From Bremia lactucae (Eukaryota > Oomycota > Peronosporomycetes > Peronosporales > Peronosporaceae): DNA of 64,000 bases. This document shows positions 2,909 through 52,600 of this stretch, in pieces (position 1 is the stretch's first letter; every line of letters begins with the position of its first letter). The notes under the pieces are model-generated. The model made no database searches. It was given only the letters and a program-made list of their open reading frames with translations, and was not told the DNA's origin. Both the position numbers and the translations under genes were made by a program. The stretch is from positions 2,417,430 through 2,481,429 of the forward strand of contig NC_090613.1 of assembly GCF_004359215.1 (NCBI RefSeq). The letters are read 5' to 3'.

Positions 2909-3882
2909 ATCTTTTCCCAGGAAGCAAAGTCAGCTTCACTTAGTGTAGTGATATTTTCATCTGACACAGTCGCGATGGTTTCTTCTTCGACTGACTCGTT
3001 CTCGAAATAGTTTACGTTTGCACGCTCGCGACGATATCCGTTGCCGCGACTATTTTGCTGGTTCCTGCGCTTGTAACACTGCTGAATCGTGTGCACCAGT
3101 TTTTTGCAGTACGCACACTTTGGTTTATTTGGACGTCGGCTATGGACGCGAGAAGACCTATGAAATGGCCGAGCATTGTCGATTTCCATCAGCTCTGGCT
3201 CATTGTTTAATTCTTTGGCCACATTTGGTGGACCAGGACGAGGGGTTGTTGCGATATGGTGATTATAACCAACCGAATGTGCGCGTTCAAAGTCGAGCGC
3301 CACAGTAATAGCCTCCGACAGTGTATTTCCCCGTCGGTATTGAACTTCTTCTTGCGTTCTTGTTTTTAATCCTCGTTGAAAATAGATTATTTGGTCTATC
3401 TCAGTCATGTCCTCAACTTGCGAAATAATGTGTCGAAATTCTGCAATGTAGTTCATTAAGCCTTTGCAACTGGCTTGTCTCAGCCGATGCAGGTCGTCTC
3501 GAAGACGTTGCTGTAGATCCGCAGGAACAAATTCATTTTCCACTGCTAGAAAAAACTCGTCGACTAAGTGAATTTCTGATTGATGCAGCAAGAATCATTG
3601 TGCTGCTGGTCCGCGCAATGAACTTCCTAGTACAGTAAGTACTTGAGGAGCCATTGCGTCTTCTCTCCACTTCGTACCGCGCGCAATAAAATATTGCTGT
3701 ACTTGCGCGGAATAAAGTCGAACCGACTCTTCACTCCTTCCGCTATACGTCGGTATTCTTAGCCCGTCCACCTTAAGCCCACCTTCTTTTTGGGAGTTAG
3801 CCAAGGATTTGATCAACTCTTGTTGTTGCTGTAGCATATGCATCATTTGCTGCATTAGCTCGGCGTTTGAGGGTTGGCCCAT
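2905..3882 (-). pseudogene. gag: Gy-A gag (nucleocapsid/capsid), one in-frame stop
   Basis: Gag forms the virus-like particle that packages element RNA. The frame opens at the ATG at 3882, giving MGQPSNAELMQQMM and a Gln-rich helix. It contains a capsid-like segment (LRIPTYSGRSEE) and continues through an in-frame TGA at 3595-3597 into a second helical part. Near the C-terminus is a CCHC zinc knuckle (CAYCKKLVHTIQQC). The TGA sits where a Trp codon would fit, suggesting one nonsense mutation rather than two genes. The stop at 2905-2907 overlaps the pol frame. Confidence 0.85.
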
Positions 3883-26577: not shown

Positions 26578-27014
26578 TGTGACGGGGTGTATCGCTACAT
26601 GAAAATAACACGTAAAGGTTGTTAATTAATATATTATCTAAAAGGTAGATAATATTTGGAGATATTACTTTATGTAGTAATATTCAGAAATCTTATCCAT
26701 AAATAGGTATAGGCCATTATATCTATTTATCCCGCAGACTAGTCAGCTGTAAACGTTAACACAGCGAGAGACGATTAAGATTTCAATTGCATGTTTACTA
26801 TTAGTTTACAATTAAGTAAGCATTAACAGATAGAAAGAAAAGATACTTTATTATATTAATACAGTTTTCATTTAACCCTCTTTAAGCTAGTTGTAAGGGA
26901 AGTCTTCCTCTGCACGTACTAGTGTACATGAAGTGACGTAAGGCACCACTCGCAACTAAAGTTGTGCGAAGTGGACTTGTACTGAAGCAGTACAAGTCGT
27001 AGTGCCCCGTTACA
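26578..27014 (+). repeat. LTR-B, 5' LTR of B1
   Basis: From TGTGACGGGGTGTATCG to TGCCCCGTTACA. Near its 3' end are two hairpins: CACTCGCAAC...GTTGTGCGAAGTG and CTTGTACTGAAGCAGTACAA. The second copies at 33225 and 62827 keep both hairpins with compensating changes in the first. Confidence 0.92.
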
Positions 27015-27034
27015 CCTGGTAGCACTTTGTAGTC
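27015..27034 (+). promoter_or_regulatory. B1 primer-binding site
   Basis: CCTGGTAGCACTTTGTAGTC follows the LTR at once, with TGG opposite a tRNA CCA end. It is identical in B2 (63269). Confidence 0.75.
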
Positions 27035-27061
27035 CGTCCAAGGACCAGTCGATAATCTAAT

Positions 27062-28204
27062 ATGGACATGTTAGATGATATTGGGAATACGCATCACGTT
27101 TCTCGTGATAGCTACTCCTTTTTAAGTGACATAAAAAGGAGTGCGGTCGAACGAATGAGTTCGACCGTAGGAAACGATGCCATCTTGGCGATGCTGTCCG
27201 GTCTGAACAGAGATGCCCTCCATTCAGCCATTGCAAAGTTCATACAAAATGAACTTGACGAGATGAAGGAGAAGGTAGCCTTGCTGAATCAGCAAGGCTC
27301 TCAACAGGCAGAACTGTTGAGGTTACAACAGGTACAGACCCCTGTACTTGGGATGACGCACACGCGTCGTCCCGAAACCTTAAAGATTGACATCTCTAAG
27401 TATAGGGGAGTCGAAGAAGACTCCCTCTTGAGATGGTTTGTCGAGTTGGACGATGCCATAAGGGCACGTCACATCGTCGACGAGCAAATGCAAGTCGCAT
27501 TCGCTCAATCAAATTTGGCAGGTCGTGCCAAAACTTGGGCATTGGGCCTTAAGTTGCGCGACCCATACGTCTTTGGGTCGCTAGAGGCTTTTAAAGCCCG
27601 GCTCAAACAGACGTTTGAACCGCCTAGGGCTGACTTCAGAGCTCGTTTAGAGCTTTTGAAACTCAAGCAAGGCAAGCGTGATGTTCACGCATATGCCCAG
27701 CACATACGACTCTTAGCGATTTGTATTACAAATAACCCAGTCCATGAACACACGTTGATTACGGTGTTCATGCAAGGTCTTACGTATGGTTCCGTTAAGA
27801 CCCACCTGTTCCGCTTGGAACTGGATACGCTTGAAGAAGCAATATCCGTTGCGGAACAGGAGGACTTTAGCTTGAGACAGGCTCAAGCTAGTTCGTCATC
27901 GTATCGTCCTCCAAGACGACACGGGCTAGGAGGTCTAGAACCCATGGACCTCTCTTACATCGAAAGCGAGAGACCTCGCTTTTCGAGGAATATGCGATTG
28001 CAGAAATGCCATCGCTGCCAAAAATTAGGACACTACGCTCATGAGTGTAGTGCCCCACGCCCAGTACCTTTCGGTACTGAACGTAATTTTGACCGTATGC
28101 CAAAAAGGGCAACGGTCGCGGATCCGACGCTGTTGCCAAATCGCAACGGCGAGGCAGATCGTCAAAAAATGGTCGGTGTCAGTAGGTGCGGAGCGCCCTT
28201 CTGA
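27062..28204 (+). CDS. gag: B1 gag, intact
   Basis: Encodes the capsid/nucleocapsid protein, 380 residues. MDMLDDIGNTHHVSRDSYS; a coiled-coil at about 55-90 (DEMKEKVALLNQQGSQQAEL); a capsid domain at about 105-240 (TLKIDISKYRGVEEDSLLRW, LEAFKARLKQTFEPPRADFR, RDVHAYAQHIRLLA); and a CCHC zinc knuckle near 325 (CHRCQKLGHYAHEC). It is the only complete Gypsy gag in the window. The start was chosen because B2 has the same ATG at 63319 and C3 at 57480. Protease follows in another frame. Confidence 0.92.
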   Translation: MDMLDDIGNTHHVSRDSYSFLSDIKRSAVERMSSTVGNDAILAMLSGLNRDALHSAIAKFIQNELDEMKEKVALLNQQGSQQAELLRLQQVQTPVLGMTHTRRPETLKIDISKYRGVEEDSLLRWFVELDDAIRARHIVDEQMQVAFAQSNLAGRAKTWALGLKLRDPYVFGSLEAFKARLKQTFEPPRADFRARLELLKLKQGKRDVHAYAQHIRLLAICITNNPVHEHTLITVFMQGLTYGSVKTHLFRLELDTLEEAISVAEQEDFSLRQAQASSSSYRPPRRHGLGGLEPMDLSYIESERPRFSRNMRLQKCHRCQKLGHYAHECSAPRPVPFGTERNFDRMPKRATVADPTLLPNRNGEADRQKMVGVSRCGAPF

Positions 28205-28884: not shown

Positions 28885-30633
28885 GGCGTGGGACAGACTC
28901 TTCTTGTGGATTCGCGTGCATCACAGAATCTTGTAAAACTCGCGGCTGAGAAACAGAGACCGGCGGTGTTTAAGTCGATTTGCCAATATGGCAAGCAGAA
29001 GAGGCAACCGTTCTTTTAGCGAACGGCGCGCTCGTAAAGTCTGAAGGGGTTCAGGTAGAACTCGCGTTCCGCTTTAGTGACGTCTCTTGTAAAAAGAAGT
29101 TCACAGTGCTAGGTATGGAGAGTCCGTATGACCTCATCCTATGCATGCCAGGGTTGACAAAACACCAACCATGGATAGACTGGTGTACACGCCAGTTGCG
29201 AACTCTACGCAGGACATTGGAAAGGATGTGCTCCTTCGAGAGGCCTATGCAACTGATGTCGTGTCGAACACAGTAAAGGGTGCGTTGACGGGATGTCAAA
29301 CGTTACCCATTCCTACCCAGCTCGTAAAGGATGGGGTAGTGAAAAGGACGATGACAAGTAGTCATGCGTCCGAATGTCCTGCACAGAGCCAAAAGCCTGT
29401 GGCAGTAGACGGCGAGCTGACAGGAAGTCAAGCGTCGCATAAATCGGCACAGTGCCTTGAACCTGGTGCAGTTGGAAGGGGTGCGTTAGCCAGGAGAGCA
29501 ACGGCACCCGCTTCCCAGTCAAAGGTCGTGGTAACTCGAAGAACGAGTACCCGACAGATTAGGACGACCGAAGGCACGTCTTAACGAGTGACTTGGATCA
29601 GTTCCTATAAAAGAAAACGGGCCTTCAAACAAGGTGTTCGAGCTGTCAAAGACGAAATTACGGAGGCATCCTCAGTTGAAGTGTGCTCTGGCAAGTCTTT
29701 AATCTGCCTAGGAGATAGTAAATCTTTCGGAGATGTCGTGAAATTCTTCCTGTCCAAATTAAAGATATGAAAGAACCACCAAAAAATCACACCATTTCCA
29801 GAAGAGAGCTTGGTGGACTGTTGCTCGTCGTCCACACTGGACGAGAGCGTCCTCGAAACGGACAAAAAGAAACGGTTCGCTGCTCAAAGCTGGGATGCCT
29901 TGAGAGACAGCCCGTTCTTTGAGGTTCTGTGAAAACATCACGATGTGTTCCCAAAAGAAGTACCGAGCCGCCTACCAGCAGATAGGGGCATCGGGCACGA
30001 AATAGACCTCGAACCCGGCACCAAGTATTGTGTGACCCAGGCAATGGCCGTTGCCGAAAGAAGAAGTCGATTATCGATGAGTTCTTTGACAAGCGAGCCA
30101 AGGCAGGACATATGTGTGAGAGCAAATCGCCTCATTGCAGCCCACCCTTTCGAGTGCGTAAAGCCATAGGTGGATGGCGCGTGGTTCATGCTTACAATAA
30201 GCTGAACACGGCGACCATACCGGCGCATACGCCACTGCCGCGGAAAAATGTCTTGTTGAACTCCATGGAAAAGTCAACTATCTTTTCCGCGTTGGATTTT
30301 AAGGATGGCTACTATCAGGTACTCAGTCCGATATAGCCAAAACAGCTGTAAGCCCCCAAACGGTATGATGTGGGAGTGGCTTGTGATGACCCAAGGTTTG
30401 GAAAACGCACCAGTGACATTCAACCCAGTGGTGGCTCACGTGATGCGTCAGCACCGTGCCTACTCGCCCCATTACTTTGACGATGTATTCGTGCATAGTG
30501 AGCTGAGCGCAATAGAGTCGCACAAGCGTCATTTAGACGCTGTGTTGCAGACTTTAAAGGACGCCCAATTGTACGTCAACTTGCAAAAGTGCGTCATAGG
30601 GGTCCCTGAGATACCTGTGTTGGGCTGCATCGT
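28885..30633 (+). pseudogene. D3: family D protease-to-RT segment inside B1
   Basis: Protease LLVDSRASQNLVKLAA (about 28894), MESPYDLILCMPG and WIDWCTRQLRTLRR; linker TGCQTLPIPTQLVKDGVVKR; RT from HHDVFPKEVPSRLPADRGIG (29939), SKSPHCSPPFRVRKAIGG, DGYYQVL, YFDDVFVHS (about 30475) and NLQKCVIGVPEIPVLGCI. Equivalent to D1 8180-9912. It ends exactly at the single N at 30634, where family B RT resumes. Confidence 0.82.
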
Positions 30634-30634
30634 N

Positions 30635-31120
30635 ATCCCGTACACAGCAGTGAGCACCCCCAGTGGTATGCTCTGGGAATGGCTAGTGATGCCTCAGGGG
30701 CTTAGTAACGCCCCTGCAACATTCAACAGATGTGTAACAAATCTGTTGAGACCGGTGCGGGATTTCGCACCGAGTTATTTCGACGATGTATTCGTCCATA
30801 GCCGGGCCATGGACGGTAAGACGGACGTGGAAGTTCATAAAACTCACGTTCGTCAGGTTCTTACACTTATGCGAAAGCATAAGTTGTATGCAAATCTCAA
30901 GAAGTGTATATTCGCTGCAAGCGAAATACCACTTCTTGGGTGCATCGTCGGTAAACACGTCGTGCGCCCTGATCCCGAAAAGATCAAGGCAATCATCGAC
31001 TGGCCAGTTCCAGTCGATGTCGAGGGACATAGAAAGTTCCTTGGTTTAGCGGCGTACTTGCACAAGTACTCTCGCAATTACGCAGAGATGACGGTTCATC
31101 TCTCTCGTCTCTTGAAGTAA
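30635..31120 (+). pseudogene. B1 reverse transcriptase, C-terminal two thirds
   Basis: IPYTAVSTPSGMLWEWLVMP, QGLSNAPATFNRCVTNLLRP, FAPSYFDDVFVHSRAM (YxDD at about 30777), KHKLYANLKKCIFAASEIPL, DPEKIKAIIDWPVPVDVEGH, KFLGLAAYLHKYSRN, then a stop at 31118-31120. The first catalytic Asp region is absent and replaced by D3. A loose family B RT scrap covering exactly the missing motif (DLMNGFYQILMRERDIPYT) is at 36588-36650. Confidence 0.85.
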
Positions 31121-31660: not shown

Positions 31661-31860
31661 CTATGTTTGATAATCATCTAATGAATCCATCCGATAAATC
31701 TCTTTAAAGATTTACCGGCTTTATATCGATCGTCATCTTTGGTCAAGTCCCTCCTCCAAATAATGGAGGAAGTGATCGATTTTGTCGATCTTCGACATTA
31801 GATCCGACACACGGTTCGGATCTAATTTTCCCTCCTCCACCACAACCATTGGTGGATTCC

Positions 31861-31990
31861 CACGGTGGTCAACCTTTCCTTGTGGAACGTATCCAGAACC
31901 ACCGTGATGTGAAGGGGCAGCGAACGAGTTATCTTGTTCGCTGGCGTGGTTATCCACCTTCACATGACAGATGAAAGCCTCGTTCCCAGC
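31861..31990 (+). pseudogene. B1 chromodomain (pol C-terminus)
   Basis: HGGQPFLVERIQNHRDVKGQ then RTSYLVRWRGYPPSHD and a stop in place of Trp. It follows RNase H after only about 200 nt, so the whole integrase zinc module and core are deleted. Confidence 0.8.
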
Positions 31991-32175
31991 TGGTTGCTGA
32001 CGTTGAAGGTCCTTGTCCGTAAGTATGACGAGACTCATTCGATGGTTCAAAAAGCCTATCGGAAAACACGCGCCCCTGGCGCTTGTAGATCGATTCCAAA
32101 ACGTCAATCGCATCGCGCATCTCGATAGAGATGCGAGCCCTTCCCCAGGGCGAAGAAAGGGAATAGACATCCTTT

Positions 32176-33148
32176 TTACCCTCTTCGAGTTGTCAACACA
32201 ACACGGACAGGGATCTCCCCACGTGAGGCATGGAAGCCCAGCCTCACGTGACAACCGATGCAATTTATACTTTGCGCCGGTTGGAGTTCGTTTCTCAAAC
32301 ATAACGCGATTCGCGTTAAGTTTTTATAGCCAGGGTTCGCGTCCAATGTCTGGGACATTGCGAATGAACAAGCTCCAGGCTTGCATAAGCGAGACTTCAT
32401 CTTGCTTATTGTTGCCACGGAACCATCGATGCATAAGAAAAGCATCGAGATAAGAATCTTCCTCAGCGCGAAAGTTCTTCGCGCTAAGATCAAGGCCATG
32501 TAGCTTTGTAGCAATAAATAAGGGATTTTTTTGTGAGGAGTAGATTCTCCAGACAAGCTATTGATTAGCCGTTCTGGTAAAAGCCACGGCTTCTTCTCAG
32601 GGGCGAGATGGGACATTTTATTGTCTTCACTTCCCGGAGTGGTTCCCACTGAAGCAGGGGGACCATAAGAACATTTATTACGATGGCTTACGCCATCGTC
32701 ATCACCTTGCACAGGAATAGGTGCAGGTGACCGTACGGGAGATGGAACGGGCGATGAGGGATCATCCTCATCGTCGGAACCAAATAGACTATTAACTCGT
32801 CTAACAGAATGTGCCCTCTCATTCGAAGGCTCATAGTCAGCCGCCTGACGTCTATCAGGCGACTGTTTCCATTCTCCCCGAGTCGGCCATTTCGTCCGAC
32901 TCGCATTCGTCGTCGACCTCCAAAGAGGGGTCGTATTCAAGTGGTGAATCACCACGTGCACCTGCAACATCTAGTGTTGCGCGAGTAGAAGATACTACGG
33001 CAGACGTTCCGTCTGCCGCAAGAGATAACAGTGCGTCACCCGCGGCTGCACGAACCGCAGCCGAAGGCGCCGTACTATCAGCACCCCGCATGAATTTGTT
33101 CTTCATGCGATGGAATTGAAAATGTTGGTTTTGACCAATCAACATCAT
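32176..33148 (-). pseudogene. aORF-B1: gene antisense to pol, before the 3' LTR
   Basis: Two large open minus-strand frames joined by a shift near 32875. N-part: MKNKFMRGADSTAPSAAVRA, RATLDVAGARGDSPLEYDP, EVDDECESDEMAD. Middle: RRVNSLFGSDDEDDPSSPVP and EKKPWLLPERLINSL. C-part, in a second frame: EEDSYLDAFLM, VSLMQAWSLFIRNVPDIGRE (about 32325-32385), PWL, then KLHRLSREAGLPCLTWGDPC and a CPCC motif (about 32195). C1 and C2 have the same Q-W-F-NV-I-RE-WL, REAGLPCL and acidic blocks. About 300 residues; no known domain. The frame stays open beyond CPCC to 31733, where it overlaps the chromodomain antisense. Confidence 0.75.
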
Positions 33149-33224: not shown

Positions 33225-33664
33225 TGTAACGGAGTGTATCGTTACATGAAATTAACACTTAAAGGTTGTTAATTAATATATTATCTAAAAGGTAGATAAT
33301 ATTTGGAGAACATTACTTGATATAGTATGTTCAGAAATCTTATCCATAAATAGGTATAGGCCATTATATCTATTTATCCCGCAGACTAATCAGCTGTAAA
33401 CGTAAACAAAGAGAGAGCAGATAAGATTTCAATTGCATGTTTAGTATTAGCTTATAATTAAGTTAGCTTTCACAGATAGAAAGAAAAGGTACTTTATTAT
33501 ATTAATACAGTTTTCATTTAACCCTCTTTAAGCTAGTTGTCGTAAAGGGAAGTCTTCATCTGCACGTACTAGTGTACGTGAAGTGACGTAAGGCACCACT
33601 CGCAACTGAAGCAGTGCAAAGTGGACTTGTACTGAAGCAATACAAGTCGTAGTGCCCCGTTACA
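33225..33664 (+). repeat. LTR-B, 3' LTR of B1
   Basis: 440 bp from TGTAACGGAGTGTATCG to TGCCCCGTTACA, preceded by a polypurine tract (AAGGAAGGGTGA, 33213-33224). Pairs with 26578-27014. Confidence 0.92.
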
Positions 33665-34053
33665 CTTCCAACATTATAAAAATTTTGGTAATATTGATGC
33701 AATAAGACATCAGTTCTATGAATTGGATGATTTAAGTTTATATCACCCCCGCCAATCGTCACAAGACACGATTGTGTGGTGTGCAAGTAGGCGCCATATA
33801 TAGTTAGGTATTAATATAATAAAGTCAGTAGTATATAGAAAATCGTTACGTAGGAGCTTAATGTATTAATACAATTTTAATTTCCCTATTTTTAAGCCTT
33901 AGAAATAACCTTTAGTAGCTAGGACTACCTAGATACTTGGAATCTTCCTCTGCACGCCGTGTATGTGAAGTAGTCGAGGAGCTTCACCTTCAACTGTAAT
34001 CAGTTTAGGTTGACTAGTACTGTTATCAGTACTAGCAAAGGCTGCCCATTACA
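33665..34053 (+). repeat. LTR-C1, right part
   Basis: Continues the LTR begun at 26449: after CTTCC comes AACATTATAAAAATTTTGG, and it ends in the hairpin CTAGTACTGTTATCAGTACT and GCTGCCCATTACA at 34053. Confidence 0.85.
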
Positions 34054-35881: not shown

Positions 35882-35954
35882 CGAACACTGGGGGTATCGA
35901 TCCCCCTACCTTCCGCATGCGAAGCGGGCGCTCTACCATTGGTGCTAAGCGCCC
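35882..35954 (-). tRNA. tRNA-Ala (anticodon CGC), probably degraded
   Basis: 73 nt folding as a tRNA. The acceptor stem GGGCGCT/AGTGTTC pairs fully, counting three G-U pairs including G3-U70, the alanine identity pair. The anticodon loop is TTCGCAT and the T-stem GGGGG/CCCCC is perfect. Defects: one mismatch in the D-stem, one at the top of the anticodon stem, and a T-loop ATCGATA instead of TTC. It sits at the end of the satellite array. It may be a pseudogene or the head of a tRNA-derived SINE. Confidence 0.6.
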
Positions 35955-36033: not shown

Positions 36034-36108
36034 AAAATTGAAATGGAACAGACTTTCCGATACCCTTGGGACCCCGGGTAACGGGTGGGTGGGTGACGGA
36101 TTTCTCCA

Positions 36109-36225
36109 ACTCGCATTCGTAGTCGACCTCCAAAGAGGGGTCGCATTCACGTAGTGTATCACCACGTGCACCCGCAACATTTAGAGTTGCGGGAGAAGAT
36201 GACACTACGGCATTGAATGTCGCCC
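36109..36225 (-). pseudogene. aORF-B fragment
   Basis: AVVSSSPATLNVAGARGDT and ECDPSLEVDYECELE match the B1 antisense protein (VVSSTRATLDVAGARGDSP, YDPSLEVDDECE) with no stop. In the plus frame, the same DNA gains a stop. Confidence 0.65.
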
Positions 36226-50459: not shown

Positions 50460-51115
50460 CAAGAAGGTTAGGCTCCTTAAGGGTTGATGGATTATCTTAA
50501 AAATCCATCACAACAATCCTTGAATCGAAATTGTATCGATCCTCAACGGATCGATACACAACACACAATAATTTACTGCATGACACAACGACAGCTGGCG
50601 ACACTCCTCGTGTCGTCATCATCGCCGGTAATGATTTTTTATTTGCATTTACGCATCATGTATGGAAAACAAAAATATTGGTGAGAGCAATAATGCTCTC
50701 ACTAATGACATGATGACATCTCCGCAGTGCGCACCGGTCACAATGACGACTAAAACAAAACCGAATCAGCAGGAGAATTCCTGCTGGCTAGAGAAGCAGT
50801 GGTCTGTTTCGTACAGGATTCCATCGCTGGTGCGGTGGACCGACAGAAACGGAACTCTGACAAAAATGAAAGAGCAAACATTATTTCTTTGAAGTTAATG
50901 ATCTTGTCCTACTGTCTACAGAAAACCTACCAAAACATGTAGTGAATGTGGGAAGTGATAAATTACTGCCCAGGTATATCGGCTCGTTTCGTGTATGCAC
51001 CGCCAAGGCAAGGCAATGCGTACACGATCGAGCTGCCACGTAGGATGCGTACGTATCCTACGTTTTATGTCGGGCGTCTCCGCCCGTACCATCCGTACGA
51101 GGCTTCTTAAGGTCT
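50460..51115 (+). pseudogene. C2 integrase remnants and GPF-type C-terminal fold
   Basis: Only fragments of the zinc module are recognisable, and the catalytic core is missing. 50790-51110 shows VDRQKRNSDKNERANIISFE, VNDLVLLSTENLPKH, KLLPRYIGSFRV, NAYTIELPRRMRTYPTFYV and GRLRPYHPYEAS then a stop. This is the integrase C-terminal module before the chromodomain. Confidence 0.68.
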
Positions 51116-51240
51116 AAGGCGTACGTCAAAAGCCTGATAGTCTCGAGCCAAAGCATGATAGTCTCGGGACAGAGTCTGGTTCTCACAGACTAGACGTCCC
51201 ACTACATCCTCTAGGGATTAAAGCTTTTGACGAGCTGTCA
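51110..51240 (-). other. Antisense coiled-coil frame between integrase and chromodomain (C2)
   Basis: Minus strand: SLEDVVGRLVCENQTLSRDY then HALARDYQAFDVRLR. About 27 aligned codons differ from 24457-24585 at roughly five silent and five replacement codons by eye. The pol strand has stops here. Confidence 0.45.
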
Positions 51241-51469
51241 CCAGCTCGTTTCGAAAAAATTGATGTACCCTTTCGTTCGCCAGTTGATCAACCGCGTTTT
51301 GCGCACAGTTTTTCAACAGGTCAAGAAAAATACCTTCGACCGTCCCCGCCAACCCGCCACGATGGGATCGTTCGTGATCAACGTCTTCCCGTAAATAACG
51401 GAGGACGTGAACCAAGTCACGGTGTTGACTAGGGTTCGGCGATCGAGGCGAACCCGATACCCCCCCTCC

Positions 51470-51620
51470 ACATCCAGTGACGAATCGAAAGGTAAAAAGC
51501 GTTTCCTAGATGAACGTTCGAACGAGTAACCTCGTTTGTTGCCGAGGGCATGCACCCTTGCATGATAGCTGGGAACCTCGTTCCCACTGATGATGGACCC
51601 TCCGGGTCTCGTTCGACAGT
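51470..51620 (+). pseudogene. C2 chromodomain remnant
   Basis: KKRFLDERSNE then stops, LLPRACTLA, PLMMDPPGLVRQYDET. It aligns with the C1 chromodomain but is badly decayed. Confidence 0.55.
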
Positions 51621-51691
51621 ACGACGAGACAGCGAACGAGCTTTTCCCGCGCTCGCAAAAGGATTGGATGTTCTCAATTTCTTCGCACAAC

Positions 51692-52600
51692 TCACAAGAG
51701 ATAAGCGTCATCCAATGAGGAAATAAGGGAGTACGCCTCCTTAAAAGCATTGCCTGCACTCTTAACGCAGCAGGGACATGGGTATCTCACGAAAGGCAAG
51801 GCAACGCTGCCTCTCTGAACAGACGGTGCAGTGTGTAGCGTGCAACGACTACGGTCCTTTTCTAAGCCGGCTACGGAAAGCATCCAGTATGTCAAGCCAG
51901 GCCTCGCGGTCTATGCTTTGCACATTCTGTACGAAGGCTTCCCAAACTTGGAACAAAGGAGTATCTCTTTTGCCCGCTTGCATGTGTACCATCGATGCCG
52001 GAAAAGGCATCGATGAAGGATTCCATTTCGTCCTCACCGGACTTGTGAAGCCTGATGAGTCGAACAACGGAATTTGGTATCGATCGTTGGTCATACCAGT
52101 TCAAGGAGTAAAGTTGCCTTTAGAGGACAACCAGGGTTTTATTTTTGGGAAATATTGCGGTCCCTCTCCCGTCGGTTATGCTAACATTAACGCTAACATT
52201 ACTTTTGGTGTGACCTTTACGATCACTTTGTCCGTGGTGATGCATACTAGCACCACCAGTTGTCTGCTTCCCGAAGCAGGCTTTGATCACATCGTTCCTG
52301 GTGATGCGTACTGACAACGCCAGAGTTATTATCGTCGATAGAGTCATCCCATGATGACTCCGCACTAAAATGGTCTGGCGAGGTGTCAAACATCTTCGTC
52401 ATTACCTCCCTGGTTTGTCACGTTAGAACCCGTAGGTTTAATTGATGTGACCCGGTTGATTCGAAGACCTTAACAGTCTACCAATCACCTCTAATTGGAC
52501 CCCATAGTAGACGCATTAGCGCCTACTGATACATTTACATCGCTAACAGTTGCACTAAGCCGTGGCGACGCGCACGGATTTCAAAACCAGGCGCAATTAA
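51692..52600 (-). pseudogene. aORF-C2: gene antisense to pol, before the 3' LTR
   Basis: Read leftwards: NVSVGANAST (about 52525), TSIKPTGSNVTNQGGNDED, FDTSPDHFSAESSWDDSID and DNNSGVVSTHHQER, PKIKPWLSS, SGEDEMESFIDAFSGIDG, TPLFQVWEAFVQNVQSIDRE with AWLDILDAF (about 51915), then RGSVALPFVRYPCPCCVKSA (about 51775). Nearly every block matches C1, and the C-part matches B1. Indels break it into four or five frames. The opposite strand also has a long open frame (51778-52314), but that frame is not shared with B1. Confidence 0.7.

Follow-up and report, generated by a model that had tools for sequence, protein, structure and literature searches.

Does the strand antisense to gag-pol, just before the 3′ LTR of three Ty3/gypsy copies (B1, C1 and C2), encode a protein that selection has kept, and how far does such a gene reach into pol? 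We analysed the window, a stretch of 64,000 nucleotides from Bremia lactucae, together with further copies of families B and C, which are both repeated in the source genome (116 Mb). The explanation that we consider best overall, and moderately probable, is a selected antisense gene of about 577 codons that runs across the end of pol and has a nuclear accessory role. Elsewhere in the same genome, adjacent TPI and GAPDH domains, a stramenopile trait that agrees with an oomycete source, lie within one open frame of 608 aa (C11:3570872-3572551).

The host element of the best preserved window copy, B1, is a chromodomain Ty3/gypsy element: gag, reverse transcriptase and an LTR pair were found in B1, and the integrase end and chromodomain in the genome copies L071 and L074, whose pol matched Pfam Chromo (3.5e-14) and SH3_Tf2-1 (2.7e-8). 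B1 itself is broken, and compared with other copies about 1.5 kb is missing at position 31740. The accessory protein of copy L018 (P0001, 425 aa) was used as tblastn query against the window. The features are listed below.

26578-27015, plus strand: 5′ LTR of B1, 91.9% identical to the 3′ LTR
27056-28204, plus strand: gag frame of B1 (Pfam Retrotrans_gag, 2.3e-13)
30260-31120, plus strand: reverse transcriptase frame of B1 (Pfam RVT_1, 2.3e-33)
31876-31971, plus strand: pol chromodomain remnant of B1, opposite the accessory gene (frame 31708-31974; limits by eye)
33225-33665, plus strand: 3′ LTR of B1, from the LTR pair comparison
31740-33148, minus strand: accessory gene of B1, broken, C-terminus deleted (tblastn with P0001 and the L071 C-terminal piece)
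32867-33148, minus strand: N-terminal part of the B1 accessory gene, P0001 residues 1-93, 88% identity
32512-32877, minus strand: residues 90-215, shifted into another frame, with an acidic and RSP-like stretch, 76% identity
31883-32527, minus strand: residues 211-425, with the VSLMQAW...GRE block, 68% identity
24898-26294, minus strand: accessory gene remnant of C1 (sequence and tblastn)
51061-52600, minus strand: accessory gene remnant of C2 (sequence and tblastn)

In B1, C1 and C2, the minus-strand sequence that precedes the 3′ LTR encodes one common protein. This had been claimed in an earlier note on this DNA, and the sequence blocks quoted there are present in all three copies. In addition, P0001 matched B1 at 33145-31883 (E 8e-171, split into three pieces over two frames), C1 (E 7e-11) and C2 (E 5e-12). 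The B1 gene had been placed at 32176-33148. Its 5′ end is indeed an ATG at 33148, followed by a second ATG at 33145, and the inner edge of the LTR (33225) is about 77 nt away, but the gene continues beyond the proposed lower end to about 31740. Neither is the B1 protein encoded in a single frame, since we found frameshifts near 32870 and 32520 and an in-frame stop at 32324-32326. The C1 and C2 remnants, which are more decayed than that of B1, were found where they had been reported, but continue to about 24898 and 51061, respectively. The C2 remnant contains a coil-like piece within 51218-51505 and the KKPRTDGTGG end at 51061-51108. As this end lies opposite a conserved pol motif, conservation of KKPR is no proof for the protein.

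Other matches in the window were few. At C1 24406-24639, the plus strand matched the accessory C-terminal part (L071 piece residues 201-271, E 1.4e-6); this segment is inverted relative to the rest of C1 and is probably a rearranged copy. Beyond the three elements, a lone fragment at 36065-36214 (P0001 residues 48-97, 58% identity) was the only other P0001 match in the window at E 0.01. Another Ty3/gypsy element at 674-2929 on the minus strand has an open pol frame of 751 codons with protease, RT and RNase H, and tblastn in the window with P0001 revealed no accessory gene beside this pol at the same threshold. With Rfam gathering scores, the window yielded a single match, a tRNA on the minus strand (35882-35954).

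As the window copies are broken, the extent of the gene was read from genome copies. The B copies comprised 40 scored of 1900 first-look candidates, one of which was the window's own, and 14 of 40 listed; L026 was left out as a repeat of L042. For C, 40 and 40 candidates were scored in two overlapping lists, from which ten copies were fetched and joined with the two from the window. The accessory frame of L018 runs open over 428 codons. Throughout the fetched pieces of L071 and L074, the frame is uninterrupted from residue 307 to the stop, which follows a KKPRTDGTGG...KT end. L071 and L074, picked for their open C-terminal part, were extended upstream (L081 and L082), and in these single natural copies one frame crosses the pol boundary for 427 codons (L071 with L081) and 390 codons (L074 with L082). 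No intron bridging the chromodomain needs to be invoked, since the frame is continuous in both. The full length of about 577 aa is made up of 306 and 271 residues observed in different copies.

Opposite the accessory frame, pol is open in L071 and L074 through the SH3-like integrase end, linker and chromodomain to its stop, and the overlap between the frames measures 698 nt. The last approximately 230 accessory codons are antisense to the last approximately 230 pol codons (SH3-like integrase end, linker, chromodomain and tail), so that the accessory stop lies opposite the SH3-like integrase end, while about 77 nt separate the start of the frame from the 3′ LTR. The previously proposed location between chromodomain and polypurine tract is correct for the part outside pol, but the gene also covers, on the opposite strand, the tail, chromodomain and linker of pol. 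We consider it likely that the accessory gene overlaps pol over this full length. Most copies are broken: a stop or frameshift was present in 22 of 24 copies spanning the non-overlapping part (first 970 nt; two intact, reference L018 counted open) and in 21 of 25 copies in the overlap (four intact, reference L071 counted open).

Outside pol, variants were scored in 39 copies relative to L018 and divided by hand into those found in one, two to three, or four or more copies. Because copies decay after insertion, singletons are expected to be neutral, and multi-copy variants should reflect selection on spreading lineages. Among the 115 variants in four or more copies, N/S in the accessory frame was 0.50 of expectation, with codon positions 29/31/55 and one stop variant versus 4.2 expected; 50 were synonymous versus 30.9 by permutation, a value reached in 1 of 5000, where it should be noted that the copies are related by descent and that tests and shuffles over them are not independent trials. 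The 578 singletons were near neutral (N/S 1.05, codon positions 187/187/204), as were variants in two to three copies (N/S 0.91). The contrast between singletons and variants in four or more copies fits the expected pattern of neutral decay and selection in spreading lineages. The sense frame with the same third position also gave an N/S of 0.51, so the variant test alone cannot separate it from the accessory frame; in that sense frame, six shared stop variants were found versus 5.2 expected. In L018 1900-2932 the sense frames contain 10, 10 and 16 stops and the accessory frame none, which rules out an env-like frame on the sense strand.

The comparison of families B and C points in the same direction. 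By accessory codon position, the difference rates outside pol were.482/.383/.684, and in 12 of 12 C copies the third position differed most. Over 48 B x C pairs, the accessory frame had an identity of 0.370 and a mean BLOSUM score of 1.82, versus identities of 0.185-0.324 and scores of 0.01-0.88 in the other five. The earlier statement that the gag-pol-sense strand holds no comparable match is therefore borne out outside pol. Two checks that the earlier note had suggested also came out in favour of the gene in this part: in the minus frame, variants in four or more copies depart from neutrality, in contrast to the nearly neutral singletons and two-to-three-copy variants, and conservation is unequal among the six frames, with the accessory frame highest. 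Variant N/S, B-C codon positions and the frame comparison rule out plain nucleotide similarity and support the convergently oriented accessory protein gene that had been proposed. Purifying selection acted on the accessory gene during the spread of the elements, and the accessory frame is almost certainly coding.

In the overlap, the accessory third position lies over the pol second position and the accessory second over the pol third, while the first position is common to both. Variants were scored in 49 of 53 offered copies with L071 as reference (chromodomain and tail, accessory positions 116-440; linker, 440-740, limits by eye). In the chromodomain and tail, N/S of the variants in four or more copies was 0.47 for pol and 0.84 for the accessory frame, with positions 4/17/13 and the shared first position poorest, and accessory N/S was 1.33 for chromodomain variants in two to three copies. 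The B-C rates by accessory position (.372/.483/.306) follow pol. In the chromodomain, constraint is held by pol and accessory constraint is weak.

The linker behaved differently. Tested with L018 as reference (3174-3690), it gave no signal (accessory N/S 0.93, positions 14/13/14, n=42); in L018 2870-3174, variants in two to three copies had an accessory N/S of 2.74. Because L018 has four frameshifts relative to L071 in the linker, the test was redone on L071. Here, the 30 variants in four or more copies had an N/S of 0.44 in the accessory frame (positions 8/5/17) and 2.10 in pol, a reversal toward the accessory frame that was absent among variants in two to three copies (accessory 0.90, pol 0.73). 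The mean BLOSUM score between B and C was 1.20 in the accessory frame, 0.21 in pol and at most 0.54 in the four other frames. The B-C position rates (.566/.459/.529) only lean the same way, with pol's third position least variable. Against this, decayed copies have more linker stops in the accessory frame, in 12 (B) and 36 (C) codon cells versus 0 and 15 for pol. In the linker it seems that the antisense frame holds the constraint and pol follows.

Synonymous shuffles of pol were performed for three copies over the whole overlap and for seven copies with the regions split, all from 14 copies (L067-L080) chosen for long open pol. Over the 258 codons tested, shuffled sequences had about 8-9 antisense stops, whereas 1, 1 and 2 were observed in L071, L074 and L073, the single stop in L071 and L074 being the gene's own; 0, 1 and 0 of 2000 shuffles, respectively, were as low. 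In the linker, accessory-frame stops were absent from 7 of 7 chosen copies versus shuffle means of 4.2-4.7 (as low in 2-11 of 2000). The chromodomain and tail were less uniform, with no stop versus 3.6, 2.8 and 4.2 (L071, L074 and L067), one versus 4.2 and 3.5 (L073 and L069), five versus 5.7 (L078) and three versus 4.5 (L072). No clear avoidance was seen in the control frames, where observed and shuffled stops were 17 and 17.1 (gag), 14 and 14.6 (RT piece) and 36 and 42.2 (other element's pol), with 553, 481 and 60 of 1000 shuffles as low. Another antisense frame in the chromodomain part is open for 150 codons; this frame is fixed by the pol amino acids, as its stop count was identical in each shuffle, whereas the accessory frame is not fixed.

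The predicted protein starts with a Ser-rich region (15% in residues 1-175) containing acidic and RSP stretches. It had been described as having a basic N-terminus, which is true for at most the first ~20 residues, but residues 1-175 contain 26 D+E and 21 K+R. The block conserved in C spans residues ~180-320. In the linker-coded part, a stretch picked by eye shows a heptad register that 1 of 500 shuffles equalled; at four window sizes, 1, 0, 1 and 0 of 300 did so. The C-terminal end is basic (7 K+R in 21 residues), and no membrane span was evident by eye. Pfam gave no match over the cut-off (best CREPT, E 0.026, 15.0 bits versus 29.3) and no bZIP family among matches at E<=1, leaving only the coiled-coil register; in PDB sequences no match was better than E 0.19. 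None of nine matched stretches in prokaryote genome contigs and neither of two in viral contigs was confirmed as a relative. AlphaFold, given a 77-aa piece together with two relatives from the window, produced a poor model (mean pLDDT 53). Upstream of the gene, an Inr-like YCAYTYY precedes the accessory ATG by 56 nt in 29 of 36 copies (L018 1844, accessory strand); such a motif also occurs nearby on the sense strand in 30 of 35 copies, with no strand difference.

We propose that an antisense transcript would start in or beside the 3′ LTR and that the accessory protein would be made from it, convergent with gag-pol. A Ser-rich N-terminus with acidic and RSP stretches, a conserved block in the middle, a coiled coil and the basic KKPR end suggest that the product may be an oligomeric, probably nuclear factor that either regulates expression of the element or aids nuclear entry of its DNA or its action at chromatin. 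Such a role, read from the protein sequence, is an evenly balanced guess. Tentatively, and with a little less than even probability, the accessory gene may have arisen by overprinting of the pol antisense strand and now dictate the sequence of pol, acting as an HBZ-like self-made nuclear regulator that arose independently of retroviruses and Tat elements; as part of the same tentative reading, the pol protein in the linker would be a by-product of the selected antisense coiled coil, with convergent transcripts.

How much of the antisense frame is a gene can be judged from the overlap. It could be that the gene is real outside pol only, the frame inside pol being a passenger and the true protein ending near the end of pol. 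The chromodomain fits this, because its B-C pattern follows pol, accessory N/S is 0.84 and a second antisense frame of 150 codons is open there as well; furthermore, linker variants in two to three copies favour neither frame. However, synonymous pol shuffles are rarely as open as the observed overlap, in the linker for 7 of 7 copies, the 150-codon frame is dictated by pol amino acids while the accessory frame is not, and linker variants in four or more copies favour the accessory frame over pol (0.44 versus 2.10). We therefore regard a passenger frame as unlikely. Far less probable still is that no protein is made at all and that the locus reflects plain nucleotide similarity or a non-coding element, such as an LTR-proximal cis signal or a structured RNA. 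The three window copies and most fetched genome copies are indeed broken, but the excess at codon position 3, the stop deficit and the frame-specific similarity argue against it, and the tRNA is the only Rfam match in the window.

For the role of the product, there is an alternative to the nuclear regulator that we regard as improbable, though less so than the passenger frame: the protein may serve the particle in its structure or in packaging, or the gene may have been captured from the host and do something else. Either is compatible with the data, and to our knowledge no roles have been established for the plant antisense ORFs. On the other hand, no Pfam match exceeded the cut-off, no PDB match was below E 0.19, no membrane span was evident by eye, and the antisense orientation would decouple the gene from the gag-pol transcript. 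On balance, we keep to the selected antisense gene with a nuclear accessory role as best explanation.

Cases of long antisense overlap with selection on both frames are rare and disputed. At this locus, one DNA stretch appears to encode proteins in both directions in two related families, B and C, and the copies of one element, many of them decayed and some open, provide an internal neutral control for selection in the overlap. Convergent transcription would yield double-stranded RNA from the element, making expression, silencing and accessory function jointly testable. With this gene, the LTR elements that carry antisense genes would come to include a non-plant lineage with a chromodomain as well.

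Antisense additional ORFs are carried by plant Tat-lineage Ty3/gypsy elements, for example gene 23 of Grande. Like these, the accessory gene is an antisense gene between pol and the 3′ LTR of an LTR retrotransposon, but it continues through the pol chromodomain and linker. Tat-lineage pol is not known to carry a chromodomain, and because pol has one here, the host element is not a Tat element. HBZ of HTLV-1 and related deltaretroviruses is an antisense gene starting at the 3′ LTR, and its product has an acidic N-terminal part, a C-terminal coiled coil and a basic stretch. The accessory gene resembles it in its start at the 3′ LTR and in all three protein features, but its product has no Pfam bZIP match and it overlaps pol, whereas HBZ overlaps the pX region. 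The likeness to HBZ and the Tat antisense ORFs is proposed in role and not by descent, and common descent with HBZ is not expected. Finally, HIV-1 asp is antisense to env and encodes a predicted membrane protein, and selection on it has been argued from frame conservation. Both genes are long antisense frames over an essential gene for which selection is argued in this way. The two differ in that asp lies within env, whereas over half of the accessory gene is located outside pol, and in that no membrane span is evident by eye in the accessory protein.
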